DNA of 26,798 nucleotides from a virus: positions 1-26,798 of IMG/VR virus record IMGVR_UViG_3300021137_000815; one strand, 5' to 3'. The notes beneath the pieces were generated by a model. The model did no database searches. It saw nothing but the letters and a program-made list of their open reading frames with translations, and was not told where the DNA came from. Positions 1,845-26,798 of the stretch are shown here, piece by piece. Position 1 is the stretch's first letter, and every line of letters begins with the position of its first letter. The translations under genes and the position numbers were made by a program.

Positions 1845-1904
1845 TTTTAGGATGTTTTCAGCAATTAAAACAATTTCATTGGCGAAAATAAACACATCCT
1901 GTTA
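1845..1904 (+). ncRNA. Y-RNA-like element E1
   Basis: A 60-base element with closing stem AGGATGT (1849-1855) / ACATCCT (1894-1900). The conserved block TTTCAGCAA follows the 5' strand, there is a small CAAT/ATTG hairpin inside, and GTTA follows the stem. The identical 60 bases recur at 2133-2192. It lies directly behind a strong promoter. The same architecture with different but compensating stems occurs at 2940, 3845 and 3905. Assignment to a Ro-binding RNA is inference from the covariation and from the Ro-like gene downstream. Confidence 0.65.
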
Positions 1905-1924
1905 TAAACAACAATGAGAACCAC

Positions 1925-2110
1925 ATGCAAATTTATATTCCAAAAGACAAACAAAAACTTACATTTATGGGTGAACTAATTGACAGGTATAGTAATTTAC
2001 ATAAACAGTATAAAATAGAACAAAATGAAGTTACCAGAACGATAATATCAGCCGAAATTATACACATTTCCAATCAAATTGCATCTGGTATGTATGATGA
2101 AACAGAATAG
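1925..2110 (+). CDS. Small helical hypothetical protein
   Basis: 61 residues, MQIYIPKDKQKLTFMGELID onward. It is predicted almost wholly helical and charged, with heptad-like spacing (YSNLHKQYKIEQNEV), so it may form a short coiled coil. There is no signal, membrane or metal motif. The ATG follows a GAG-containing leader that carries element E1, so this gene and E1 share a transcript. If a Ro-like protein binds E1, it could influence this gene's expression. I do not recognise the family. Confidence 0.6.
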   Translation: MQIYIPKDKQKLTFMGELIDRYSNLHKQYKIEQNEVTRTIISAEIIHISNQIASGMYDETE

Positions 2111-2120
2111 ATAATATATC

Positions 2121-2129
2121 TGGTATAAT
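2121..2129 (+). promoter_or_regulatory. Extended -10 promoter
   Basis: TGGTATAAT (TGN plus TATAAT) at 2121-2129, without a clear -35. Initiation about seven bases downstream would place the RNA start almost exactly at the first base of element E2, followed by tRNA-Gly. Confidence 0.5.
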
Positions 2130-2132
2130 TAG

Positions 2133-2192
2133 TTTTAGGATGTTTTCAGCAATTAAAACAATTTCATTGGCGAAAATAAACACATCCTGTTA
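2133..2192 (+). ncRNA. Y-RNA-like element E2 (exact copy of E1)
   Basis: All 60 bases are identical to 1845-1904: stem AGGATGT (2137-2143) / ACATCCT (2182-2188), TTTCAGCAA block, final CCTGTTA. The flanks differ. Perfect identity in a genome that otherwise drifts suggests recent duplication or strong constraint. It ends six bases before tRNA-Gly, so tRNA 5' processing could release its 3' end. Confidence 0.65.
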
Positions 2193-2198
2193 AATATT

Positions 2199-2272
2199 GC
2201 GGTCTTGGTATATTGCTCGTGCCATGCCTTTCCACGGCATAGAAAGGGGTTGGATTCCCCTAGACCGCTCCA
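2199..2272 (+). tRNA. tRNA-Gly(TCC), atypical D-arm and T-loop
   Basis: The acceptor stem GCGGTCT/AGACCGC pairs fully and is followed by T and an encoded CCA. The anticodon stem ATGCC/GGCAT closes loop TTTCCAC, giving anticodon TCC. The T-stem AGGGG/CCCCT is intact, but the T-loop is TTGGATT, with G where C56 is almost always found. The D-arm is irregular and lacks a clear GG. It may be a functional but divergent phage tRNA or a tRNA-like decoy. It is preceded directly by element E2. Confidence 0.75.
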
Positions 2273-2287
2273 ATTTATAAAGGCTAT

Positions 2288-2854
2288 ATGACATTACAAG
2301 AAATGTTAAACAAAACTTATGTACGTCAGCGATCATTTGAAATAATGATTGAACACTTGGATACAATTAACAATCCATTAATTGTTGAAACTGGATGTGC
2401 TAGACAAGAAGATAACTTTGCTGGTGATGGAATGAGTACCTTGATATTTGATAGATATATTAACGATAAAGGTGGAGAATTCCATTCAGTTGATATAAAT
2501 CCTTCTAATATCAAATTTGCTAAAAGCAAAGTTAGTAATAAAAGCAATTTACATGTAAGTGATAGTGTATCTTGGTTATGGGAATTTAACAAAACTGGTA
2601 AACAAATAGATCTATTATATTTAGACAGTTTTGATTTTGATAGAAATAACCCTTATCCAAGTTGTATACACCATTTAAAAGAATTAACTGCTATTATAGG
2701 TAGTTTAGGTGAAACCACAGTAATTGCGGTAGATGATAACTTTGGGCAAGGTGCTTCTCGCATTGGTAAAGGCCAATTAGTTGAAGAATTTATGAAATCA
2801 ACAGGTAGAAATCTTCTTTTATATGAAGGATACCAATTACTGTGGAAATGGTAA
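2288..2854 (+). CDS. Class I SAM-dependent methyltransferase
   Basis: 188 residues with a Rossmann-type methyltransferase pattern. Motif I is LIVETGCARQ (31-40), followed by a GDGMST loop. The acidic end of strand 2 is HSVDINP (66-72), and motif IV is DLLYLDSFD (108-116), with a second acidic pair AVDD (147-150). The size and motif series fit the small Methyltransf_24-like group. The substrate cannot be read from the sequence. AGG lies upstream of the ATG at 2288, between tRNA-Gly and tRNA-Met. Given these neighbours, RNA or capsule-sugar modification are both possible. Neither is shown. Confidence 0.7.
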   Translation: MTLQEMLNKTYVRQRSFEIMIEHLDTINNPLIVETGCARQEDNFAGDGMSTLIFDRYINDKGGEFHSVDINPSNIKFAKSKVSNKSNLHVSDSVSWLWEFNKTGKQIDLLYLDSFDFDRNNPYPSCIHHLKELTAIIGSLGETTVIAVDDNFGQGASRIGKGQLVEEFMKSTGRNLLLYEGYQLLWKW

Positions 2855-2864
2855 TATAAACAAT

Positions 2865-2938
2865 CGCAGGTTATTTTAATGGTAGAATTCTGGGCTCATA
2901 ACCCAGAGATGATAGTTCGACTCTATCACCTGCTTCCA
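2865..2938 (+). tRNA. Initiator-like tRNA-Met(CAT)
   Basis: The anticodon stem CTGGG/CCCAG closes loop CTCATAA (anticodon CAT), and the T-arm GATAG-TTCGACT-CTATC is standard. Counting back from the T-loop, base 1 is C2865 opposite T2934, so position 1-72 is unpaired and pairing starts at G2866. An unpaired 1-72 and three consecutive G-C pairs at the base of the anticodon stem are the classic marks of bacterial initiator tRNA. CCA is encoded. The 11-24 pair looks elongator-like, so identity needs testing. It is followed immediately by element E3. Confidence 0.8.
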
Positions 2939-2939
2939 A

Positions 2940-3061
2940 TTTTAGGATACATTCAGCAATACAACTTTGACAAGCAGATGGTCATTGGTTCAAATCCAAT
3001 ATGTTAGTAATAACATTAGCTCAGCTGGTAGAGCATCCGCCATAAAAAACGTATCCTGTTA
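2940..3061 (+). ncRNA. Y-RNA-like element E3 with permuted tRNA-like domain
   Basis: Closing stem AGGATAC (2944-2950) / GTATCCT (3051-3057), conserved ATTCAGCAA block and final CCTGTTA. Inside is a tRNA fold in permuted order. Anticodon 3' strand GCAGA (2974-2978), five-base variable TGGTC, T-arm ATTGG-TTCAAAT-CCAAT, and acceptor strand ATGTTA come first. A GTAA tetraloop (3007-3010) is followed by acceptor strand TAACAT, TA, D-arm GCTC-AGCTGGTA-GAGC, A, and TCCGC (3036-3040). TCCGC pairs with GCAGA except for one C-A. Bacterial Y RNAs such as YrlA combine a Ro-binding terminal stem with a tRNA mimic, so this is the strongest Y-RNA candidate. TTGACAA before GCAGA suggests a tRNA-Val(GAC) ancestor. 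Confidence 0.75.
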
Positions 3062-3079
3062 AAATTAAAAGAGGTAATA

Positions 3080-3352
3080 ATGACACAAGTAACAGCAAGA
3101 CATATTTTAGTTCAATCTCTTTCAGAAGCAGAAATCTTACATAAACAACTTATTGAAGGTTCAGATTTTGGAATGTTGGCTAGAACACATAGTAAATGTC
3201 CAAGTGGACAAAATGGTGGTAATTTAGGTACATTTGGTCGTGGTCAAATGGTACCACCATTTGAAAATGCAACATTTGATTTAGATGTTGGCGGGTTAAG
3301 TGAACCAGTCCAAACATCATTTGGATATCACATTATCAATAGAACAGCATAG
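3080..3352 (+). CDS. Parvulin-type peptidyl-prolyl isomerase
   Basis: 90 residues, close in length to E. coli PpiC (93). It shows ARHILV at the start, DFGMLARTHSKCPSG in the middle, GGNLGTFGRGQMVPPFE and the closing FGYHII, all hallmarks of the rotamase fold. There is no signal peptide, so it acts in the cytoplasm. It catalyses cis-trans isomerisation of peptidyl-proline bonds. AAGAGG precedes the ATG, and GroES follows after eight bases, so the two folding factors form one operon. Its leader is element E3. Confidence 0.9.
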   Translation: MTQVTARHILVQSLSEAEILHKQLIEGSDFGMLARTHSKCPSGQNGGNLGTFGRGQMVPPFENATFDLDVGGLSEPVQTSFGYHIINRTA

Positions 3353-3360
3353 GAATAATA

Positions 3361-3648
3361 ATGAATTTTCAAGTATTATATGATCGTGTAGTAGTAAAGA
3401 AAACAGTAGATACTAAAGTTAGTGCATCTGGAATTATTATTGCTGCTGATTCAAAAGAAAGAACAATTACTAGCGAAGTTGTTGCAGTTGGTGATGGAAA
3501 ACAGTATGAAAATGGTAATGTTATACCAACTACTGTTAAAGTAGGTGAACGAGTAATGTATTTAAAAGATACTGGCATTGATATTAAAATTGATGGCGTT
3601 GACTATCTTATATTGCATGAAAGTGAAATTCTTGGTATCATAGAATAA
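3361..3648 (+). CDS. groES: GroES-type co-chaperonin
   Basis: 95 residues (E. coli GroES has 97). The N-terminal strand FQVLYDRVVVKK is followed by a mobile loop, VDTKVSASGIIIAADSKE, with the hydrophobic GIII tripeptide that docks on GroEL. Then come VVAVGDGK, a roof loop, VGERVMYLKDTG and a C-terminal ILHESEILGIIE. It would cap host GroEL (no groEL is visible here), probably to fold phage structural proteins, as T4 gp31 does. It looks more like bacterial GroES than gp31. AGGA precedes the ATG. The gene sits between the parvulin and tRNA-Cys. Confidence 0.92.
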   Translation: MNFQVLYDRVVVKKTVDTKVSASGIIIAADSKERTITSEVVAVGDGKQYENGNVIPTTVKVGERVMYLKDTGIDIKIDGVDYLILHESEILGIIE

Positions 3649-3655
3649 ATTATAC

Positions 3656-3730
3656 GCTGAAGTGACAGAACGGCTATGTAGCGGTCCGCAAAACCGTTTA
3701 ATGTGGGTTCGAATCCCATCTTTAGCTCCA
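3656..3730 (+). tRNA. tRNA-Cys(GCA) with C at position 33
   Basis: The acceptor stem GCTGAAG/CTTTAGC pairs with one G-T. The D-arm and the TATGTAGCGG stretch resemble E. coli tRNA-Cys. The T-arm GTGGG-TTCGAAT-CCCAT is standard, and the discriminator T plus CCA are encoded. The anticodon stem GCGGT/ACCGT closes loop CCGCAAA. The anticodon is GCA, but position 33 is C, where U is nearly universal. This may affect the U-turn or codon reading. It begins seven bases after groES. Confidence 0.85.
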
Positions 3731-3751
3731 TTTTTAATAGTTAAATTTAAA

Positions 3752-3846
3752 TGAATAGTTTCAGCAAACAATATTGCGACTAATAATCGCTCCAGAGATA
3801 CTTCATTGCTGTTAGAAGTAAAATGACGGCAACAGCTATTCAGTTT
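3752..3846 (+). ncRNA. Y-RNA-like element E4 (divergent)
   Basis: TGAATAG (3752-3758) pairs with CTATTCA (3836-3842), and the block TTTCAGCAA follows the 5' strand directly, as in E1/E2. GTT follows the 3' strand. The AGG/CCT start of the stem seen in the others is absent. Inside are GCGA-CTAATAA-TCGC, an anticodon-arm-like hairpin, and ACTTC/GAAGT. It abuts element E5. Confidence 0.5.
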
Positions 3847-3899
3847 TTAGGTTCCATTCAGCATATACTTTCACTGCAAATGAAAAACGGAACCTGTTA
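3845..3899 (+). ncRNA. Y-RNA-like element E5
   Basis: Stem AGGTTCC (3849-3855) / GGAACCT (3889-3895), block ATTCAGCA, final CCTGTTA. The stem differs from E1 and E3 at four positions with matching changes opposite. The interior holds TTTCA-CTGCAAA-TGAAA, whose seven-base loop looks like a tRNA-Cys anticodon loop (T33, GCA). It is about 55 bases long. Confidence 0.65.
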
Positions 3900-3904
3900 T
3901 TACA

Positions 3905-4010
3905 TTTAGGCTAGATACAGCAACCCATACAACTTATAATGTTAGACTGGTATATCCGGTCACACTGGAAGGAAGAACCAGTATAAAAACTCAACAAACA
4001 CTAGCCTGTT
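3905..4010 (+). ncRNA. Y-RNA-like element E6
   Basis: Stem AGGCTAG (3908-3914) / CTAGCCT (4001-4007), block ATACAGCAA (one change), and GTTT after the stem. The interior has ACTGGT/ACCAGT enclosing CCGG/CTGG, plus AAC-TTATAAT-GTT. With E4 and E5 it fills the 300-base gap between tRNA-Cys and the gene at 4031. Confidence 0.6.
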
Positions 4011-4030
4011 TCCCCATCCACCTTACATTA

Positions 4031-4255
4031 ATGGACCTTATAATGTCTTTAGAATTGATTGACCAACTTGTAAAAGAAACTGTTGACGTCGCAAATTATC
4101 TAGATTACGCAGTTGATATCGATGAAGAACTGATGTTACTTGCAATTAAGAATAATCAAGAACTTATCGATGAATTAAATAACCTACCACATCGTGAATA
4201 TAAAGAAATTGTTGAAATTGTTTTAGATAAAGCATATGACAATTTTTATGCATAA
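4031..4255 (+). CDS. Small acidic helical protein
   Basis: 74 residues, or 70 from the second ATG at 4043, which has GGA at a better distance and may be the true start. The protein is acidic and helical (LELIDQLVKETVDVANYLDY, later REYKEIVEIVLDKAYDNFYA). It has no signal, metal or membrane motif. It lies just downstream of three Y-like RNAs and just upstream of the Ro-like gene's promoter. The position hints at a link to that system, but nothing in the sequence proves it. Family not recognised. Confidence 0.6.
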   Translation: MDLIMSLELIDQLVKETVDVANYLDYAVDIDEELMLLAIKNNQELIDELNNLPHREYKEIVEIVLDKAYDNFYA

Positions 4256-4261
4256 TATAAG

Positions 4262-4289
4262 TTGACAAAAAAATTAAATCTGTTATAAT
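4262..4289 (+). promoter_or_regulatory. Sigma-70-type promoter of the Ro-like gene
   Basis: TTGACA at 4262-4267, 16-base spacer, TATAAT at 4284-4289. Initiation near 4296 would put element E7 at the extreme 5' end of the mRNA for the Ro-like N-terminal fragment. Confidence 0.75.
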
Positions 4290-4297
4290 ACATCTAT

Positions 4298-4334
4298 AGT
4301 TTAGAAACAGCAAACAATAACACACTAACCTGAG
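4298..4334 (+). ncRNA. Element E7: short Y-like motif in the Ro-like mRNA leader
   Basis: AGTTTAG (4298-4304) can pair with CTAACCT (4325-4331) with one mismatch. AAACAGCAA follows the 5' strand, in register with the block of E1-E6. The interior is short and unpaired. It ends right at the ribosome-binding site (GAGAG) of the gene at 4345, so protein binding there could repress translation. This reading is inference. Confidence 0.4.
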
Positions 4335-4344
4335 AGATAATAAA

Positions 4345-4812
4345 ATGACTACAAAATTAAATACAAACAAAACAGTCACTAGTAATGGCATGAAATGTAA
4401 TAATGATACAGGTGATGCAGTTGTTTCATTATTCTTTAAAATAGGTGCAAGTCGTGGTAAAGATATAATTCCAGCATTTACTGATGCATATTACCAAAAT
4501 AAAGAACTAGCGTTACGAGTTGCATTATGGTCACGTGATGTGCGTGGTGGTTCTGGCGAACGAAAATTGTTCAGAGATATTCTAACACATTTAGAAACTA
4601 TTGATATTGATGCTGCTAAAGCTTTAATTGATAAAACAGTTGAGATAGGAAGATGGGATGACCTATTGGTGTTCAAAAAACCAGAACTACAACAAGTGGC
4701 TTTCTCTAAAATAAAAAGCACACTTGAGGCAGGATTGAACGCTAAAAGTTTATTAAAAAAAATCGATTCTCTTACGGAAGAAGAATGTCAAAAAATCATT
4801 GACAAGTTTTAA
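4345..4812 (+). CDS. Ro60-like (TROVE/DUF2828) protein, N-terminal fragment
   Basis: 155 residues matching the first half of the helical-repeat ring of Ro-like proteins: GDAVVSLFFKIGASRGKD (23-40), ELALRVALWSRDVRGGSGER (54-73) and IGRWDDLLVF (101-110). Family members are single proteins with this ring followed by a von Willebrand A domain. Here the ring stops at residue 155. Its last residues (DKF) are encoded by bases that also form the 3' end of the GIY-YIG gene on the other strand, so the original sequence was cut at about 4796. The rest resumes as a separate gene at 5652. Ro proteins bind Y RNAs and misfolded RNAs in the cytoplasm. The two halves probably assemble after translation. Confidence 0.85.
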   Translation: MTTKLNTNKTVTSNGMKCNNDTGDAVVSLFFKIGASRGKDIIPAFTDAYYQNKELALRVALWSRDVRGGSGERKLFRDILTHLETIDIDAAKALIDKTVEIGRWDDLLVFKKPELQQVAFSKIKSTLEAGLNAKSLLKKIDSLTEEECQKIIDKF

Positions 4813-5509
4813 TATGTTTAGAAAAATTCCCAGGATCAAATTGGCGTTTGCAATATATACAACACCTATATGATATATCTACGGGAATTTTTCTCTTTTT
4901 ACCTAGTAATTTGTTTTTTTCTCTAGTAATACGTCGTTTTTCCTCTATTATTTGGTTTTCAATATCAGATCTATTTTTTGCAATATTACGAACTGAATTA
5001 GATATTTTTTGTATAATTTCTTTAGAACGATTTTTATTTGCATCTGAAATTTTTTTAGATCTTATTTTTTTAGTTTCTTCGGTCATATTTGCATGACCAC
5101 ATTTAGCACCAATTGAAATGTTTAATATAACCTGTTGATGCTCAATCAATGACCGATTGTTTTTTCTATCTATACATTTTTGGATAGATTCTTTAGTTGG
5201 GATAAATTTGGTAGCAGAGAATCTTTTATTTAACCAAAAATCTCTGAACTTCCATAATCTAGAAAGTATTTTACCTTCCCAGATAATTGCATCTTGTTTA
5301 GATTTAAACGTTTTTCTAATCAATATTATATCTGGTTCTCCATGATTTTTTCTAAAATCTTTCACTATTGTTGAACTTGTAAAATAAGAATTCCACAAGT
5401 CTGCTGGTTGACAATTATTTGCATATCGAACACCATAATACCATTTATTATGGGTAGTCCAACCAATTAAATAAGTAAACGGGATTGTTTTTGATTGATA
5501 AATAGACAT
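4796..5509 (-). CDS. GIY-YIG homing endonuclease
   Basis: 237 residues. The GIY-YIG core appears as TYLIGWTT followed by KWYYGVRYANNCQP near the N-terminus, then IRKTFKSKQDAIIWEGKIL with the catalytic glutamate. A basic middle (MTEETKKIRSKKISDANKN) resembles NUMOD-type DNA-binding repeats, and a C-terminal finger reads CCIYCKRQF...HIKTC. The ATG at 5509 follows AAGGAG in the shared cassette leader. The gene lies between the two halves of the Ro-like protein, in the opposite orientation, and overlaps the N-terminal half by 17 bases. Such enzymes cut cassette-free alleles and spread by repair copying. It is closely similar in plan to the gene at 7316. Confidence 0.88.
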   Translation of the reverse strand: MSIYQSKTIPFTYLIGWTTHNKWYYGVRYANNCQPADLWNSYFTSSTIVKDFRKNHGEPDIILIRKTFKSKQDAIIWEGKILSRLWKFRDFWLNKRFSATKFIPTKESIQKCIDRKNNRSLIEHQQVILNISIGAKCGHANMTEETKKIRSKKISDANKNRSKEIIQKISNSVRNIAKNRSDIENQIIEEKRRITREKNKLLGKKRKIPVDISYRCCIYCKRQFDPGNFSKHIKTCQ

Positions 5510-5534
5510 GTTGATACTCCTTCATAGTATTAAA

Positions 5535-5576
5535 GTAGATGGGAACGGCTAATTCCGCGATCTACACTTATTTATC
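5535..5576 (-). promoter_or_regulatory. Cassette leader 2: late promoter plus hairpin
   Basis: On the minus strand, GATAAATAAG at 5576-5567 precedes a hairpin at 5565-5535: outer GTAGAT/ATCTAC, inner GGAA/TTCC, CGC on one side and C on the other. AAGGAG and the ATG follow. Compared with leader 1, the outer stem changed T-A to A-T. Confidence 0.7.
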
Positions 5577-5584
5577 TTTTTTGC

Positions 5585-5613
5585 TTGACATTTCTTCTCA
5601 CCTATTGTATAAT
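5585..5613 (+). promoter_or_regulatory. Sigma-70-type promoter of the Ro-like C-terminal gene
   Basis: TTGACA at 5585-5590, 17-base spacer, TATAAT at 5608-5613. The leader contains TAACCTGA, also present before the N-terminal fragment, and a short ACCT/AGGT hairpin. The second half of the split protein is therefore expressed on its own. Confidence 0.75.
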
Positions 5614-5651
5614 ACAATTTTATATTAACAAATAACCTGACAGGTACAATC

Positions 5652-6725
5652 ATGACAGCAAAAGAAGAATTAAAACAAAAATTACAATCACAGCTATTTG
5701 ATGCAAACACAGCTGCAAAATGGATGCCTAGAGAAAAATCATCGAAGCGAAATATCGCCAGAGACTTAATTAAATTCTTTGGATGGTCTCCAAAATTTTA
5801 TCGTAAAACTTTAGTTTCATTAACTTCAGTCGTTGAAACACAAATGTGTGCAAATGATTGGGATAATATTAACTTTAGTCATGTACCATCATTGGCTAGT
5901 TCACGATACAAAAAAGCATTTAATAGACATACTACTAAATTTGCTGACTATGTTGAATCTTTAATTAAAGGTGATACATCAGTTAAGGTAAATGCCGGTG
6001 CAGTATTTCCATATGATGTTTTAAAAGGTATCGGTGGATACGGATTTAAAGCAGAAACGGACCATATCATTGCACAATGGAATGCATTACCAAATTTTGT
6101 CGGCGATGCTAATATTTTACCATTAGTTGATGTTAGCGGATCTATGAGTTGCCCAGCAGGTGGATATAACTCTAAAAGTTCAGTTACTTGTATGGACGTT
6201 GCGGTATCATTGGGATTATACTTAGCAGACAAAAATGCTGGTAAATTTAAAGATACATTTATCACATTTAGTGAAAAACCAGAGTTATTAACACTTCAAG
6301 GCAATATTGTTAATAAAGCTTCACAAATGATAGGATCACACTGGGGTATGAGCACTGATTTACATGCTGCATTTGATTTAATATTGAAAATGGCAGTTAA
6401 ATTAAATATACCACAAGCAGAAATGCCAGAAATGTTATTGATAATGTCAGACATGCAATTTAACTGTTGCAGAAACTATGATGATAGTGCAATTCAAATG
6501 ATAGAACGAAAATATTCTACTGCTGGATATGTTGTACCAAAGGTTGTATTTTGGAATATCAATGCATCAGATAATGTTCCAGTAACTGCTGATAAATCAG
6601 GTGCTGCATTGGTATCTGGATTTAGTCCAGCTATTGTAAAAGCATTATTAGCTGCTGATATGAGTGATTTCACACCATATGGCATTATGATGTCAACGAT
6701 AACTAACCCAAGATATGACGTATGA
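5652..6725 (+). CDS. Ro60-like protein, C-terminal fragment with vWA domain
   Basis: 357 residues. Residues 20-130 continue the helical ring (AAKWMPREKSSKR, FFGWSPKFYRKTLVSL, HVPSLASSRYKKAF, NAGAVFPYDVLKG). Residues about 154-350 form a von Willebrand A domain with a complete metal site: D160-S162-S164 in VDVSGSM, T235 in GMSTDL and D267 in MSDMQF. In Ro60 this domain closes the ring, while the ring's surface and hole bind Y RNA and single-stranded RNA ends. The gene has its own promoter and start codon, so it is a genuine second gene. Its stop overlaps the next ATG (ATGA). The first 18 or so residues have no counterpart I recognise and may be recruited sequence. Confidence 0.88.
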   Translation: MTAKEELKQKLQSQLFDANTAAKWMPREKSSKRNIARDLIKFFGWSPKFYRKTLVSLTSVVETQMCANDWDNINFSHVPSLASSRYKKAFNRHTTKFADYVESLIKGDTSVKVNAGAVFPYDVLKGIGGYGFKAETDHIIAQWNALPNFVGDANILPLVDVSGSMSCPAGGYNSKSSVTCMDVAVSLGLYLADKNAGKFKDTFITFSEKPELLTLQGNIVNKASQMIGSHWGMSTDLHAAFDLILKMAVKLNIPQAEMPEMLLIMSDMQFNCCRNYDDSAIQMIERKYSTAGYVVPKVVFWNINASDNVPVTADKSGAALVSGFSPAIVKALLAADMSDFTPYGIMMSTITNPRYDV

Positions 6726-12720: not shown

Positions 12721-13305
12721 ATGCCAGCATTGATACCAATGGTAGTTGAACAAGAAGCACGCGGTGAACGTTCTTATGACATCTATAGTCGATTATTAAA
12801 AGATCGAATTATTATGTTAGATACAGATGTAAATGAACATTCAGCAAGTATTATAGTTGCGCAGTTGTTATTCTTAGAAAGTCAATCTAATGATGAGATT
12901 CAATTCTATATTAATAGCCCAGGTGGCAGCGTGACAAGTGGGTTAGGTATTCTAGACACGATGGATTTCATAAAACCGGATATTTGTACTATAGTGATAG
13001 GAACTGCCTGTTCTATGGGTTCATTGCTAGCTAGTTCTGGAACACCTGGGAAGCGTTTTATTCTTCCTAGATCGAGCCATATGATACATTCAGTTTCAGG
13101 AGGGTCGCGTGGAACTGTATGGGATGCTGAAATTCAAATGGAAGAAATGGTGAGATTAAATAATCTTTTAACTGAAATTTATGCTAAAAATACTGGAAAA
13201 ACAGTTGAAGAATTGAAACAGGCAATGGCTAGAGATAATTATATGGATGCCAACTCCTCAGTTGCATTTGGGTTAGCTGACAAGGTATTGACATCCAGAA
13301 TTTAA
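12721..13305 (+). CDS. clpP: ClpP-type serine protease
   Basis: 194 residues. The catalytic triad is present with the E. coli spacing: S98 in TACSMG, H123 in HMIH and D172 in ARDNY (E. coli mature 97/122/171). [20 protein letters not shown] at the N-terminus and INSPGGSV for the oxyanion strand are classic. It assembles as a 14-subunit chamber in the cytoplasm and needs a Clp ATPase, which must come from the host, or mixed rings could alter host ClpP. In some phages a ClpP-like protein serves as prohead protease. This one is closest to cellular ClpP, but that alternative is open. The 3' end is overlapped by an endonuclease gene on the other strand. Confidence 0.93.
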
Positions 13306-14269: not shown

Positions 14270-14294
14270 AGCTGTGACTCCGACAAGTTGTAGA

Positions 14295-14338
14295 GTAGTT
14301 GGGAACCCCACGTTCCGTGAACTACATCTTTATTTATC
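14295..14338 (-). promoter_or_regulatory. Cassette leader 4: late promoter plus hairpin
   Basis: On the minus strand, GATAAATAAA at 14338-14329, then a hairpin at 14325-14295: outer GTAGTT/AACTAC, inner GGAAC.../GTTCC. The 5' side has CAC instead of CGC and the 3' side a single C. GGAG and the ATG follow. Confidence 0.7.
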
Positions 14339-16673: not shown

Positions 16674-17600
16674 TTATTTTAACTTTTTATATTTTCTAGT
16701 TATTCGTTTTGGATTTTCTTTACATGATTTAACATGTCTAGTGATTCCTGTACCTTGTCCAAACAGTTGATGACAAAATGGACATGATTCTTTTTCAATT
16801 AATTTACCTGTTAATGGATTCGCAATTTTATTTGGGTTATGCAAACATCTAGATTCGTGTGCCTTTATGTTATTAGTCGCAATATTTGATGAACAAAACT
16901 TACAACTAACAATTGCAGGTTTTGATTTAACTAATGGGGGTTTTTTATTAGGATTGTGAGTACAATAATAGGTTTCGTGAAATACGATACCATTACCAAT
17001 TGAAAATAATTTATTACAGTATTTACATGGAGCCTTTGTAATTTTTTTCCCGGCATATTTATGAATTTTCTTATTAGGGTTGTTAATGCAAAACATTTCA
17101 TGAAGCAAAATTGCACTATTTTTTGCAAAATGTTCTCCGCAAAATTTACATTGTGTTGTTTCATATACTTTTCCAAGCGGTCCCCAATTATTTGCTCCAC
17201 TGGTTTTATTCATCAATATTCCAGTATGAATATCAATTCTACCATAATGATTTATTAAAATAATTTCATAATTGGTAGCAGTATCTTTTGTAATATTATC
17301 AGAAAAAATTACAATTAATGATGGGTCTGGTGTTTTTACATTATTATGTTTTTCAGATGGTCTATTAGATCTTCCTTCTCCAATATAATATAAACTACCA
17401 GAGGGGCCGTATTCATCATCGTGTTCACGTAAATACCCATATACACAACACCCAGAAAGTTGTTTGATATGTGTTAATAATGTAGGATTTAGATAATTTT
17501 TTATATATTCTGGTAGATTACTTATATCCTCTACAAATAAATTTTGAGGTTGATTGACAGAATCGATTTCATGTGGTAAAATATGTTTACTAAATAACAT
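16674..17600 (-). CDS. GIY-YIG-like endonuclease with four zinc fingers
   Basis: 308 residues. After about 45 residues the GIY-type core shows CCVYGYLREH, then SLYYIGEGRSNRPSEKH and TATNYEIILINHYGR with the catalytic glutamate, closest to the LEM-3-like branch of the fold. From residue 150 four fingers follow at regular spacing: CKFCGEHF, CKYCNKLF, CKFCSSNI and CPFCHQLF, each with H-x(3-5)-C and an NPN/NPK linker. The array would read a long DNA site. The ATG at 17600 follows AAGGAG in the shared leader. The gene sits directly in front of mazG. Confidence 0.82.
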   Translation of the reverse strand: MLFSKHILPHEIDSVNQPQNLFVEDISNLPEYIKNYLNPTLLTHIKQLSGCCVYGYLREHDDEYGPSGSLYYIGEGRSNRPSEKHNNVKTPDPSLIVIFSDNITKDTATNYEIILINHYGRIDIHTGILMNKTSGANNWGPLGKVYETTQCKFCGEHFAKNSAILLHEMFCINNPNKKIHKYAGKKITKAPCKYCNKLFSIGNGIVFHETYYCTHNPNKKPPLVKSKPAIVSCKFCSSNIATNNIKAHESRCLHNPNKIANPLTGKLIEKESCPFCHQLFGQGTGITRHVKSCKENPKRITRKYKKLK

Positions 17601-17626
17601 TGTTGATGCTCCTTCAAAGCATTAAA

Positions 17627-17668
17627 GTGGTTGGGAATTGGTAGTTCCGTGAACCACACTTATTTATC
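17627..17668 (-). promoter_or_regulatory. Cassette leader 5: late promoter plus hairpin
   Basis: On the minus strand, GATAAATAAG at 17668-17659, then a hairpin at 17657-17627: outer GTGGTT/AACCAC, inner GGAA/TTCC, CAC on the 5' side, C on the 3' side. The A-T to G-C change in the outer stem is matched on both strands. Confidence 0.7.
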
Positions 17669-17690
17669 TACTTAAACAAAAGGAATACAA

Positions 17691-25264: not shown

Positions 25265-25477
25265 ATGGCAATTAAACCGTTCGCAATACAAGGCGCCGAC
25301 CTAATACTAGGTGGCGTAAATTTACAAGCAGGTACAACTGGTGTTGTTATTCCTGGCATTACTCAAGCAACTAGCTATAAAGTAGAAGAAGTTAATACTG
25401 TCTGTGTCAAACATAAAATTACCGTTGTAAGGTTGACTTGCTATTTGACTTTCACTATAAAAGAAACTGAATCCTAA
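25265..25477 (+). pseudogene. Truncated structural protein at a rearrangement junction
   Basis: AAGGAA precedes the ATG. Residues 1-44 (MAIKPFAIQGADLILGGVNL, AGTTGVVIPGITQATSYKVE) are a recognisable start of a phage structural protein. From about base 25399 the frame is merely the antisense of the PP-loop gene (VCVKHKITVVRLTC...). The native sequence therefore stops abruptly near 25398, where the opposite-strand gene also loses its end. It may still yield a 70-residue product. Confidence 0.6.
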
Positions 25478-25669
25478 TTGTTCAAGTTCCGTTAACACTT
25501 GTTTTACTATGATAGATTCTGCCTTATCTCTATGTTCTATATTTTGGTTGTGAATATGATGTATATGTAGGTTATATTGTTTGTATTCAGATTCTGTTAA
25601 TAATTTGTAAATCATACCAAGACTATCTAGTCCGCCTGAGTACATGGCTAAGATTGTTTGTTGTTCCAT
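25400..25669 (-). pseudogene. PP-loop ATPase (QueC-like), 3' end missing
   Basis: From the ATG at 25669, about 90 native residues remain. The PP-loop AMYSGGLDSLGM lies at residues 8-19, then HIHHIHNQNIEHRDKAE, FFYSES and YNGNFMFDTDS. This resembles the start of 7-cyano-7-deazaguanine synthase-like enzymes, which activate a carboxyl group with ATP. Phage members can belong to DNA or tRNA deazaguanine pathways, but no other such gene is visible. After about residue 90 the frame continues to 25322 as antisense of the structural gene, so the C-terminal half, including any zinc site, is lost. Its start overlaps the end of the methyltransferase-like gene. Confidence 0.65.
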
Positions 25670-26161: not shown

Positions 26162-26798
26162 ATGACAACAATATTATGGACAGAAAATACTGGATATTCT
26201 TTAGGAACATTACCAGAAAGAGCTGCTGTCACAATACAATTACCAGTACCATCTACACCAATTGGTGTTTTATATTCTGTTATATCAGGTGAACTGCCTC
26301 CTGGATTGGAGTTAATTGGACATACAATAACTGGAAATCCATTCATAGTTGCAACGGCTACTACATTTTCATTTTGTATTAGAGCTACGTATAATAATGA
26401 AATATCCGATAGAACATTTTTTATTACTATTACTGGCGCAAATCCACCAGAATTTGTAATTCAAGATGCTAATTTAGATATAGGACCAGTTCATCAGTTT
26501 TTTGCAATTGATAAGACATATATTGAATACAAATTAGAAGCTACTGAATTAATACCATCCTTACGCCCAAATTTAACATTTATAATTATTGATGGAATAC
26601 TACCACCTGGATTAACATTAAGTAAAAATGGTGTAATATCAGGAATTGTTGATGAATTGACCGCAATTCCACCAGATAATGCACAAGGAATTTATACTTT
26701 TACAGTATCAGTTACGGATGGGTTCTTATATACAAATAAACAATATACTATTTATATAGTTGGTCCATCATACTTATCAGCTGATAATATATCAATAT
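26162..26798 (+). CDS. Large structural protein with Ig-like (He_PIG) repeats, runs off the window
   Basis: Open from the ATG at 26162 (AGAGAG upstream) to the window end, 212 residues so far. Repeats of the form GELPPGLELIGHTITGNP and GILPPGLTLSKNGVISGIV are the signature of putative-Ig (He_PIG) domains. Each is followed by strands such as TFTVSVTDGFLYTNKQYTIY. These stacked beta domains are common in large phage tail or fibre proteins and give surface binding. It continues the tail gene order broken by the insert at 25.4-26.1 kb. Confidence 0.8.
   Translation, partial: MTTILWTENTGYSLGTLPERAAVTIQLPVPSTPIGVLYSVISGELPPGLELIGHTITGNPFIVATATTFSFCIRATYNNEISDRTFFITITGANPPEFVIQDANLDIGPVHQFFAIDKTYIEYKLEATELIPSLRPNLTFIIIDGILPPGLTLSKNGVISGIVDELTAIPPDNAQGIYTFTVSVTDGFLYTNKQYTIYIVGPSYLSADNISI

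Follow-up and report, generated by a model that had tools for sequence, protein, structure and literature searches.

Y-RNA-like elements with a common stem-and-motif handle beside a Ro-like gene in a viral DNA fragment

A cluster of seven RNA-like elements lies among tRNA genes directly upstream of a gene for a Ro-like protein in a 26.8 kb virus fragment (IMG/VR record IMGVR_UViG_3300021137_000815, positions 1 to 26,798), which was analysed over its whole length and is referred to as the window. The ends of each RNA would join in a stem of 7-8 bp, with (T)TACAGCAA after its 5' strand; the stem and this motif are together called the handle, and the sequence that the handle encloses is called the payload. 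The locus is organized as follows, with all features on the plus strand:

1614-1693, +: tRNA-Thr
1801-1829, +: sigma70-type consensus promoter TTGACA-N17-TATAAT, preceding element 1
1848-1901, +: element 1, short class, 8-bp closing stem (T.G outermost), then TTTCAGCAA
2136-2189, +: element 2, exact copy of element 1
2199-2272, +: tRNA-Gly
2865-2938, +: tRNA-Met
2943-3058, +: element 3, T class, handle and permuted tRNA-like module (T-arm, closed acceptor hairpin, D-arm)
3656-3730, +: tRNA-Cys
3752-3842, +: element 4, 91 nt, handle and two hairpins, one of them GCGA-CTAATAA-TCGC
3848-3896, +: element 5, short class
3907-4008, +: element 6, 102 nt, handle and multibranch interior
4262-4289, +: promoter TTGACA-N16-TATAAT of the Ro-like gene
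4298-4332, +: element 7, leader element in the 5' untranslated region of the Ro-like gene, ending 12 nt before the ATG
4345-4812, +: Ro-like protein, N-terminal part (DUF2828, PHROG 850)
5585-5613, +: promoter of the C-terminal Ro-like part
5652-6725, +: Ro-like protein, C-terminal part (end of DUF2828 and DUF7788 vWA domain with DVSGSM)

A blind scan of the window for a 7-mer, 2-3 nt, CAGCA and a complementary 7-mer at most 170 nt away returned six elements on the plus strand, all of them within the cluster. The reversed window gave one match in the same scan, and the six matches on the minus strand are dispersed and lack the other features of the elements. An earlier reading of the DNA, made from the sequence only, had placed seven elements on one plan; six of the seven carry a perfect closing stem of 7-8 bp followed by NNCAGCA, whereas the seventh, at 4298, is real but imperfect, its stem AGTTTAG/CTAACCT containing one T.C mismatch. 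The four tRNA genes interleaved with the elements between 1614 and 3730 bear out the placement of the cluster among tRNAs, and at the Rfam gathering threshold only tRNAs were found in the window. Elements 1 and 2 contain the hairpin TTTC-ATTGGC-GAAA, which is similar to a tRNA D-arm, and a TATAAT at 2124-2129 sets the expected transcription start at the 5' end of element 2. Element 5 contains the hairpin TTTCA-CTGCAAA-TGAAA, similar to the anticodon arm of tRNA-Cys(GCA). Relatives of element 4 occur in the viral contigs L006, L007 and L013, and homologues of element 6 in L006, L010 and L013. The anticodon-arm-like hairpin with the CTAATA loop is conserved in elements of 91-122 nt (L047 at 5527, L055 at 7131, L063 at 4 and the window at 3752), and it also resembles a hairpin of the 16S rRNA.

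The closing stem was analysed in 80 viral contigs retrieved via the Ro-like protein, in which the plan recurs many times ahead of related genes. Elements were selected by anchors only, AGG-N4-N2/3-CAGCA and the nearest downstream CCTG, which avoids selecting on pairing. The four free bases per side pair perfectly in 92 of the 129 non-redundant elements, compared with a mean of 8.06 and a maximum of 18 for shuffled partners (1000 trials), and the opposite strand and the reversed sequence of the relatives yielded 6-8 anchors and no pairs. Pairing is thus retained while the sequence of the stem changes, as had been supposed from the few copies in the window, and the covariation is strong in the aligned homologues, both in this stem and in the T class described below. 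What stays constant across phages is the stem with (T)(T)ACAGCAA behind it, a 3' side rich in A, and a G that follows the stem. The majority sequence around the motif in cultured phages is C-T-T-A-CAGCAA; of this, CAGCA was a requirement of the scan, which also favoured the flanking A's, but CTT was not selected. The CCTGTTA that the earlier reading gave for most elements is a habit of this lineage.

The protein encoded beside the cluster matches DUF2828 and DUF7788, with no sequence match to Pfam TROVE, and a vWA_Ro60 match was obtained only at E 0.012, in 6 of the 33 alignment members. Because a PDB sequence search with the Ro alignment returned no relative, a comparison of folds was needed. 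For this, the full-length relative in L013 was modelled from a 33-sequence alignment (predicted local distance difference test score, pLDDT, 70.8). The two top Foldseek matches of the model are the Ro60 of Thermus phage phiLo (9l5y) and the Ro60 autoantigen with RNA (2i91). VIA-align puts Ro60/TROVE structures in its nine top rows (Z 12.4-16.2 over 369-399 residues), followed by an unrelated row at Z 9.8 that covers the vWA domain only. The model comprises the helical-repeat ring and vWA domain that make up the Ro60/TROVE fold, and by this predicted fold the gene adjoining the cluster is a Ro60/TROVE protein, in agreement with the sequence-only reading. In the window, the gene is split into two open reading frames (ORFs) by an insert (4796-5651) with a homing-endonuclease-like ORF (4796-5509, minus strand), while in relatives outside L003-L005 it is intact and single. 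Because the second half is preceded by a promoter of its own (5585-5613) and has a separate start, a Ro protein in two pieces may be formed. Ro-like proteins of this type are present in about 680 cultured phage records (680 of 50,697, roughly 1.3%), and some of these records, from mycobacteriophages, carry the annotation "Ro-like RNA binding protein".

The association of the elements with Ro genes extends to independent phages, as the sequence-only reading implied. The sample comprised 17 cultured phages encoding a Ro-like gene, from Gram-negative and Gram-positive hosts and mycobacteria (Escherichia, Vibrio, Aeromonas, Pseudomonas, Klebsiella, Campylobacter, Sinorhizobium, Synechococcus, Bacillus, Listeria, Staphylococcus, Enterococcus, Mycobacterium, and others). 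Canonical elements are located near the Ro-like gene in 13 of the 17; GAP32 and Munch have a leader variant with TCAACA, and Ci1 and Ahp1 have five-armed tRNAs in place of canonical elements. The elements of four complete genomes are concentrated around the Ro gene, with all three elements of Whirlwind within 250 nt of it and four of the five in JH2 within 1.1 kb. Elements are located at 42119-42375 in Whirlwind, a phage of M. smegmatis, and at 73668-74526 in the E. coli Felixounavirus JH2. Searched as DNA only, the pattern GGATRCTAACAGCAA-N25-55-GYATCCTG matched 119 viral stretches and its scrambled version none, and a DUF7788 Ro-like gene is present on 34 of 50 contigs found by this pattern (mostly fragments), compared with the roughly 1.3% of phage records. 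Two hallmarks of Y RNAs were therefore found, a gene located beside a Ro60/Rsr-type protein (in the window, by fold, and on the 34 of 50 contigs) and 5' and 3' ends that pair in a conserved stem.

Above the score cut-off, 277 elements were found on the gene strand and 24 on the other strand of the same loci. The 212 unique sequences among the 277 sort into classes. The short class (44-74 nt) encloses a small hairpin. The T class (100-140 nt) contains a T-arm, a closed acceptor-like hairpin and a D-arm, which is the permuted order of bacterial YrlA; in 30 sequences from phages of many hosts, 19 of the 20 pairs in four helices have changed on both sides, with a covariation score of 0.742 compared with 0.214 for shuffled and about 0.1 for slid partners. 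The multibranch class X (145-170 nt) shows double changes in 18 of 31 predicted pairs and no match to an Rfam family; its module stands on the handle in L049 (7165-7326), L036 (4841-5003), L031 (6771-6935) and 14 others. A 5-bp stem with a 7-nt loop of the anticodon type (mostly CTNNNAA) occurs in 22 of the 96 unique short interiors, whereas dinucleotide shuffles gave 1.3 such hairpins (maximum 4). D-arm-like hairpins occur in 13 short interiors, compared with 0.6 expected from shuffles, by a pattern that was set after the sequences were seen. In alignment A5 the row L344 was not used, as its minus-strand coordinates are wrong.

Element 7 takes a special position. The promoter at 4262-4289 places the expected transcription start of the Ro mRNA at the 5' end of this element. 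An element precedes the start codon in 71 of 72 related Ro genes, compared with 56 of 795 other ORF starts, at a distance of 3-45 bases (median 14) in the 71 genes, and a ribosome-binding-like motif lies between stem and ATG in 45 of the 47 unique leaders. Leaders of the same type are also found in LAh_6, F361, phiN3, Munch and BUCT-ZZ01. For the gene of the window and for that of L013, a leader with a perfect stem was sought and not found; both genes retain a version with one mismatch. The element at 4298, which had been counted as a Y RNA like the rest, is more plausibly a leader element that regulates the Ro mRNA than a free Y RNA, and autoregulation of Ro via this leader would be the natural reading.

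The handle is also found within tRNAs. Complete five-armed tRNAs, most of them with encoded CCA, are present in BUCT-ZZ01, Ci1, Ahp1, KVP40, LAh_6 and the viral contigs L060 and L070, beside Ro genes or within tRNA arrays, with similar sequences in Aeromonas phages such as Aeh1 and phiAS5. Their fifth arm is the handle, capped by a short loop to form an additional hairpin between D-arm and anticodon arm. The following were located:

L083, 9581-9697 and 9713-9829: five-armed tRNAs
L084, 9482-9600 and 9602-9721: five-armed tRNAs
L089, 11728-11848: five-armed tRNA
KVP40 loci L105 and L115; L265; L060; L070: five-armed tRNAs

A scan for such tRNAs returned nine with C(A/T)GCA and none or one with each of eight scrambled motifs. 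All five arms appear in the minimum-energy folds of Ahp1 and of one BUCT-ZZ01 copy. The five-armed tRNAs amount to circularly permuted T-class RNAs, and those of Ahp1 and BUCT-ZZ01 also have the GAGCAACGTAAAA junction of that class. In the records they are annotated as pseudo-tRNAs or not annotated.

Phage Y RNAs are known in kind. An abstract from 2014 reportedly counted more than 250 species of bacteria and phages with likely Y RNAs close to Ro60, at least one Y RNA per species being said to have a tRNA-like domain. Already reported are also the solved Ro60 of phage phiLo (9l5y) and the Ro-like annotations in mycobacteriophages; mycobacteriophage Y RNAs are referred to in a passage of PMC12282133, and a passage of a Vibrio jumbo phage paper, in which a Ro60-like ORF is described for Vibrio phage pir03, cites reports of YrlA in phages (PMC7765460). 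Bacterial YrlA (RF02553) with Rsr/Ro60 and the phage system have in common the gene beside a Ro-fold protein, the end-pairing stem and the permuted tRNA module. Element 3 matches RF02553 at 2977-3037 (E 2e-4), and within the window the YrlA order of T-arm, closed acceptor and D-arm is displayed by this element at 2943 only; as YrlA matches near E 0.1 arose in 11 of 14 control genomes, only strong ones were used. Unlike YrlA, many phage elements lack a tRNA body and one lies in the Ro mRNA leader. The sequence of the bacterial Ro-binding stem, of the TACTTC or GAATGC type, was not found in the phage elements, which use the CAGCA handle instead: among 48 bacterial YrlA-like RNAs, TACTTC occurs in 26 and CAGCA in the 60 nt before the T-arm in one, without a closing stem. 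By sequence, the handle is thus distinct from the bacterial YrlA sampled. Bacterial YrlA was also considered as parent of the handle and rejected, with CAGCA and a closing stem in none of 81 bacterial pattern places, many of which are tandem tRNAs. The impression that the family is undescribed applies in part: phage Y RNAs were known as a kind, while the common handle, the leader element, the single-arm and the multibranch payloads and the five-armed tRNAs turned up neither in Rfam at cut-off nor in the literature examined, which did not include the primary bacterial Y-RNA papers, where some of these features may be noted.

Expression data exist for a related system. In Listeria phage CKA15, purified virions contain the Ro homologue CKA15_055 (20 peptides, 57% coverage), and three noncoding regions located upstream of Ro, at most 2 kb away, rank among the most transcribed, for which the authors offer Y RNAs as one explanation (PMC12282133). 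The CKA15 genome (OR088597) contains three elements at 25,289-25,553, downstream of TTGACA-N17-TATCAT, with similar promoters at 26,764 and 27,181 in front of other noncoding stretches; the trio may correspond to one of the abundant RNAs. Two noncoding stretches near the Ro gene, 26,236-26,727 and about 26,880-27,180, lie behind TTGACA promoters, and the former, another of the three upstream regions and the most transcribed region of the phage (PMC12282133), is without the CAGCA handle.

A likeness to a eukaryotic RNA family was found as well. The Class I RNAs of Dictyostelium are 42-65 nt long and end in a terminal stem, whose 5' strand adjoins a conserved 11-nt motif, the remainder being variable; they occur in many abundant copies, are unique to Dictyostelia and are bound by the RNA recognition motif (RRM) protein Rnp1A (PMC7919456). 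The model RF01414 matches short elements of the window with 30.8 bits (E 1e-4 for a 76-base stretch, E 0.009 in a 6.8 kb search), and in the 101 kb genome of LAh_6 all eight matched places are elements. As weak matches also arose in 4 of 14 control genomes, single weak matches mean little and the coincidence of matches with elements is the evidence. The RF01414 consensus CCUUACAGCAA has CTTACAGCAA in common with the consensus of cultured phages, and a terminal stem with a CCUUACAGCAA-type motif within 42-65 nt is found in the phage short class only. Since there is no match at cut-off, the phage RNAs are not filed as Class I members, and the reported restriction of Class I RNAs to Dictyostelia and their binding by Rnp1A differ from the Ro-linked phage elements. 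It is a tentative idea, which we regard as somewhat more doubtful than probable, that a system of ACAGCAA handle and DUF2828-type Ro ring spans phages and eukaryotes, with Class I RNAs as its eukaryotic branch and with modular display of tRNA mimics, handle-bearing five-armed tRNAs and Ro mRNA feedback in the phages.

Taken together, it is likely that the cluster represents a phage Y-RNA-like family of noncoding RNAs that serves the adjoining Ro-like ring protein via the handle, exchangeable payloads and leader feedback. This reading builds on the conservation of sequence and structure, the covariation, the association with the gene, the leader position and the Ro fold. The RNAs would be made from their own consensus promoters or co-transcribed with tRNAs; the handle would be the site bound by Ro and would display a permuted tRNA body, a D-arm or anticodon-arm mimic, a T-arm or a larger multibranch fold. 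The Ro mRNA itself begins with a copy of the handle, adjacent to the ribosome-binding site, so that Ro made in excess probably blocks translation of its own message. Through the payloads, Ro is probably tethered to host factors that read tRNA, such as nucleases, modification enzymes and PNPase, or these factors are decoyed, which would support or protect the tRNA set of the phage. Several points speak against this reading. The definition of an element was fixed after the cluster had been seen, as was the D-arm pattern, and the relatives share ancestry, so that sequence counts overstate independent events. Element 7 has no stable fold when folded alone, and its stem carries the mismatch. Element 3 scores 33.4 bits at a gathering score of 69 bits for RF02553 (best relative 48.9), and the 30.8 bits of the phage elements fall below the 41.5 bits of RF01414. 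The only coordinates given in PMC12282133 for an abundant RNA of CKA15, 26,236-26,727, coincide with none of the elements.

Many elements stand immediately between a tRNA and a gene of the same strand, and they might for this reason be processing or structural signals of tRNA operons, such as RNase hairpins separating tRNAs and mRNAs, rather than Ro ligands. This is improbable, as neither a constant unpaired ACAGCAA nor tRNA-like payloads of 50-120 nt would be required of a processing hairpin; elements also adjoin Ro where few tRNAs are close by, as in Whirlwind and S-CoN_Ph7, and the Ro leader holds an element far more often than other ORF starts do. That the elements are mobile repeats of the type of miniature inverted-repeat transposable elements, accumulated near tRNAs by chance, would agree with the exact duplicate at 1848 and 2136 and with the terminal complementarity, but it is scarcely credible: the stems differ between copies while pairing is kept, target duplications common to the copies were not seen, and the association with Ro holds across distant phages. 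It was rejected on the covariation. A further explanation sees the elements mainly as decoys, whose mimics of anticodon arms and tRNA bodies absorb tRNA-cleaving host defences with Ro merely as scaffold. The enrichment of anticodon-arm-like loops (CTTTTAA, CTGCAAA, CTTCTAA and others), the large tRNA arrays in relatives and the RNA ligases or RtcB near Ro in Listeria, GAP32, Munch and LAh_6 phages fit with it. We consider it unlikely, since multibranch and D-arm payloads are not obvious decoys and the nuclease to be targeted would be hypothetical; moreover, it is a special case of the Y-RNA-like explanation and not an alternative to Ro binding.

If the Y-RNA-like reading is correct, Ro in hundreds of phages, including those of E. 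coli and Mycobacterium smegmatis, has a recognisable RNA code, so that phage Ro ribonucleoproteins can be studied in simple hosts. It would also imply that one protein handle can bear many tRNA imitations, predict that Ro feeds back on its own synthesis via the leader of its mRNA, and offer a candidate protein partner and function for the dictyostelid Class I RNAs.

Further features of the window concern other genes. It encodes three further phage proteins:

3080-3352: parvulin-type prolyl isomerase
3361-3648: GroES-like co-chaperonin
12721-13305: ClpP-like protease

A conserved hairpin block GTAG-TGGGAAC...TTCCGCGA-CTAC is found at 932-1017, 5492-5577, 14291-14326 and 17584-17669. It precedes several minus-strand homing-endonuclease-like ORFs and is perhaps a common leader or mobility signal.

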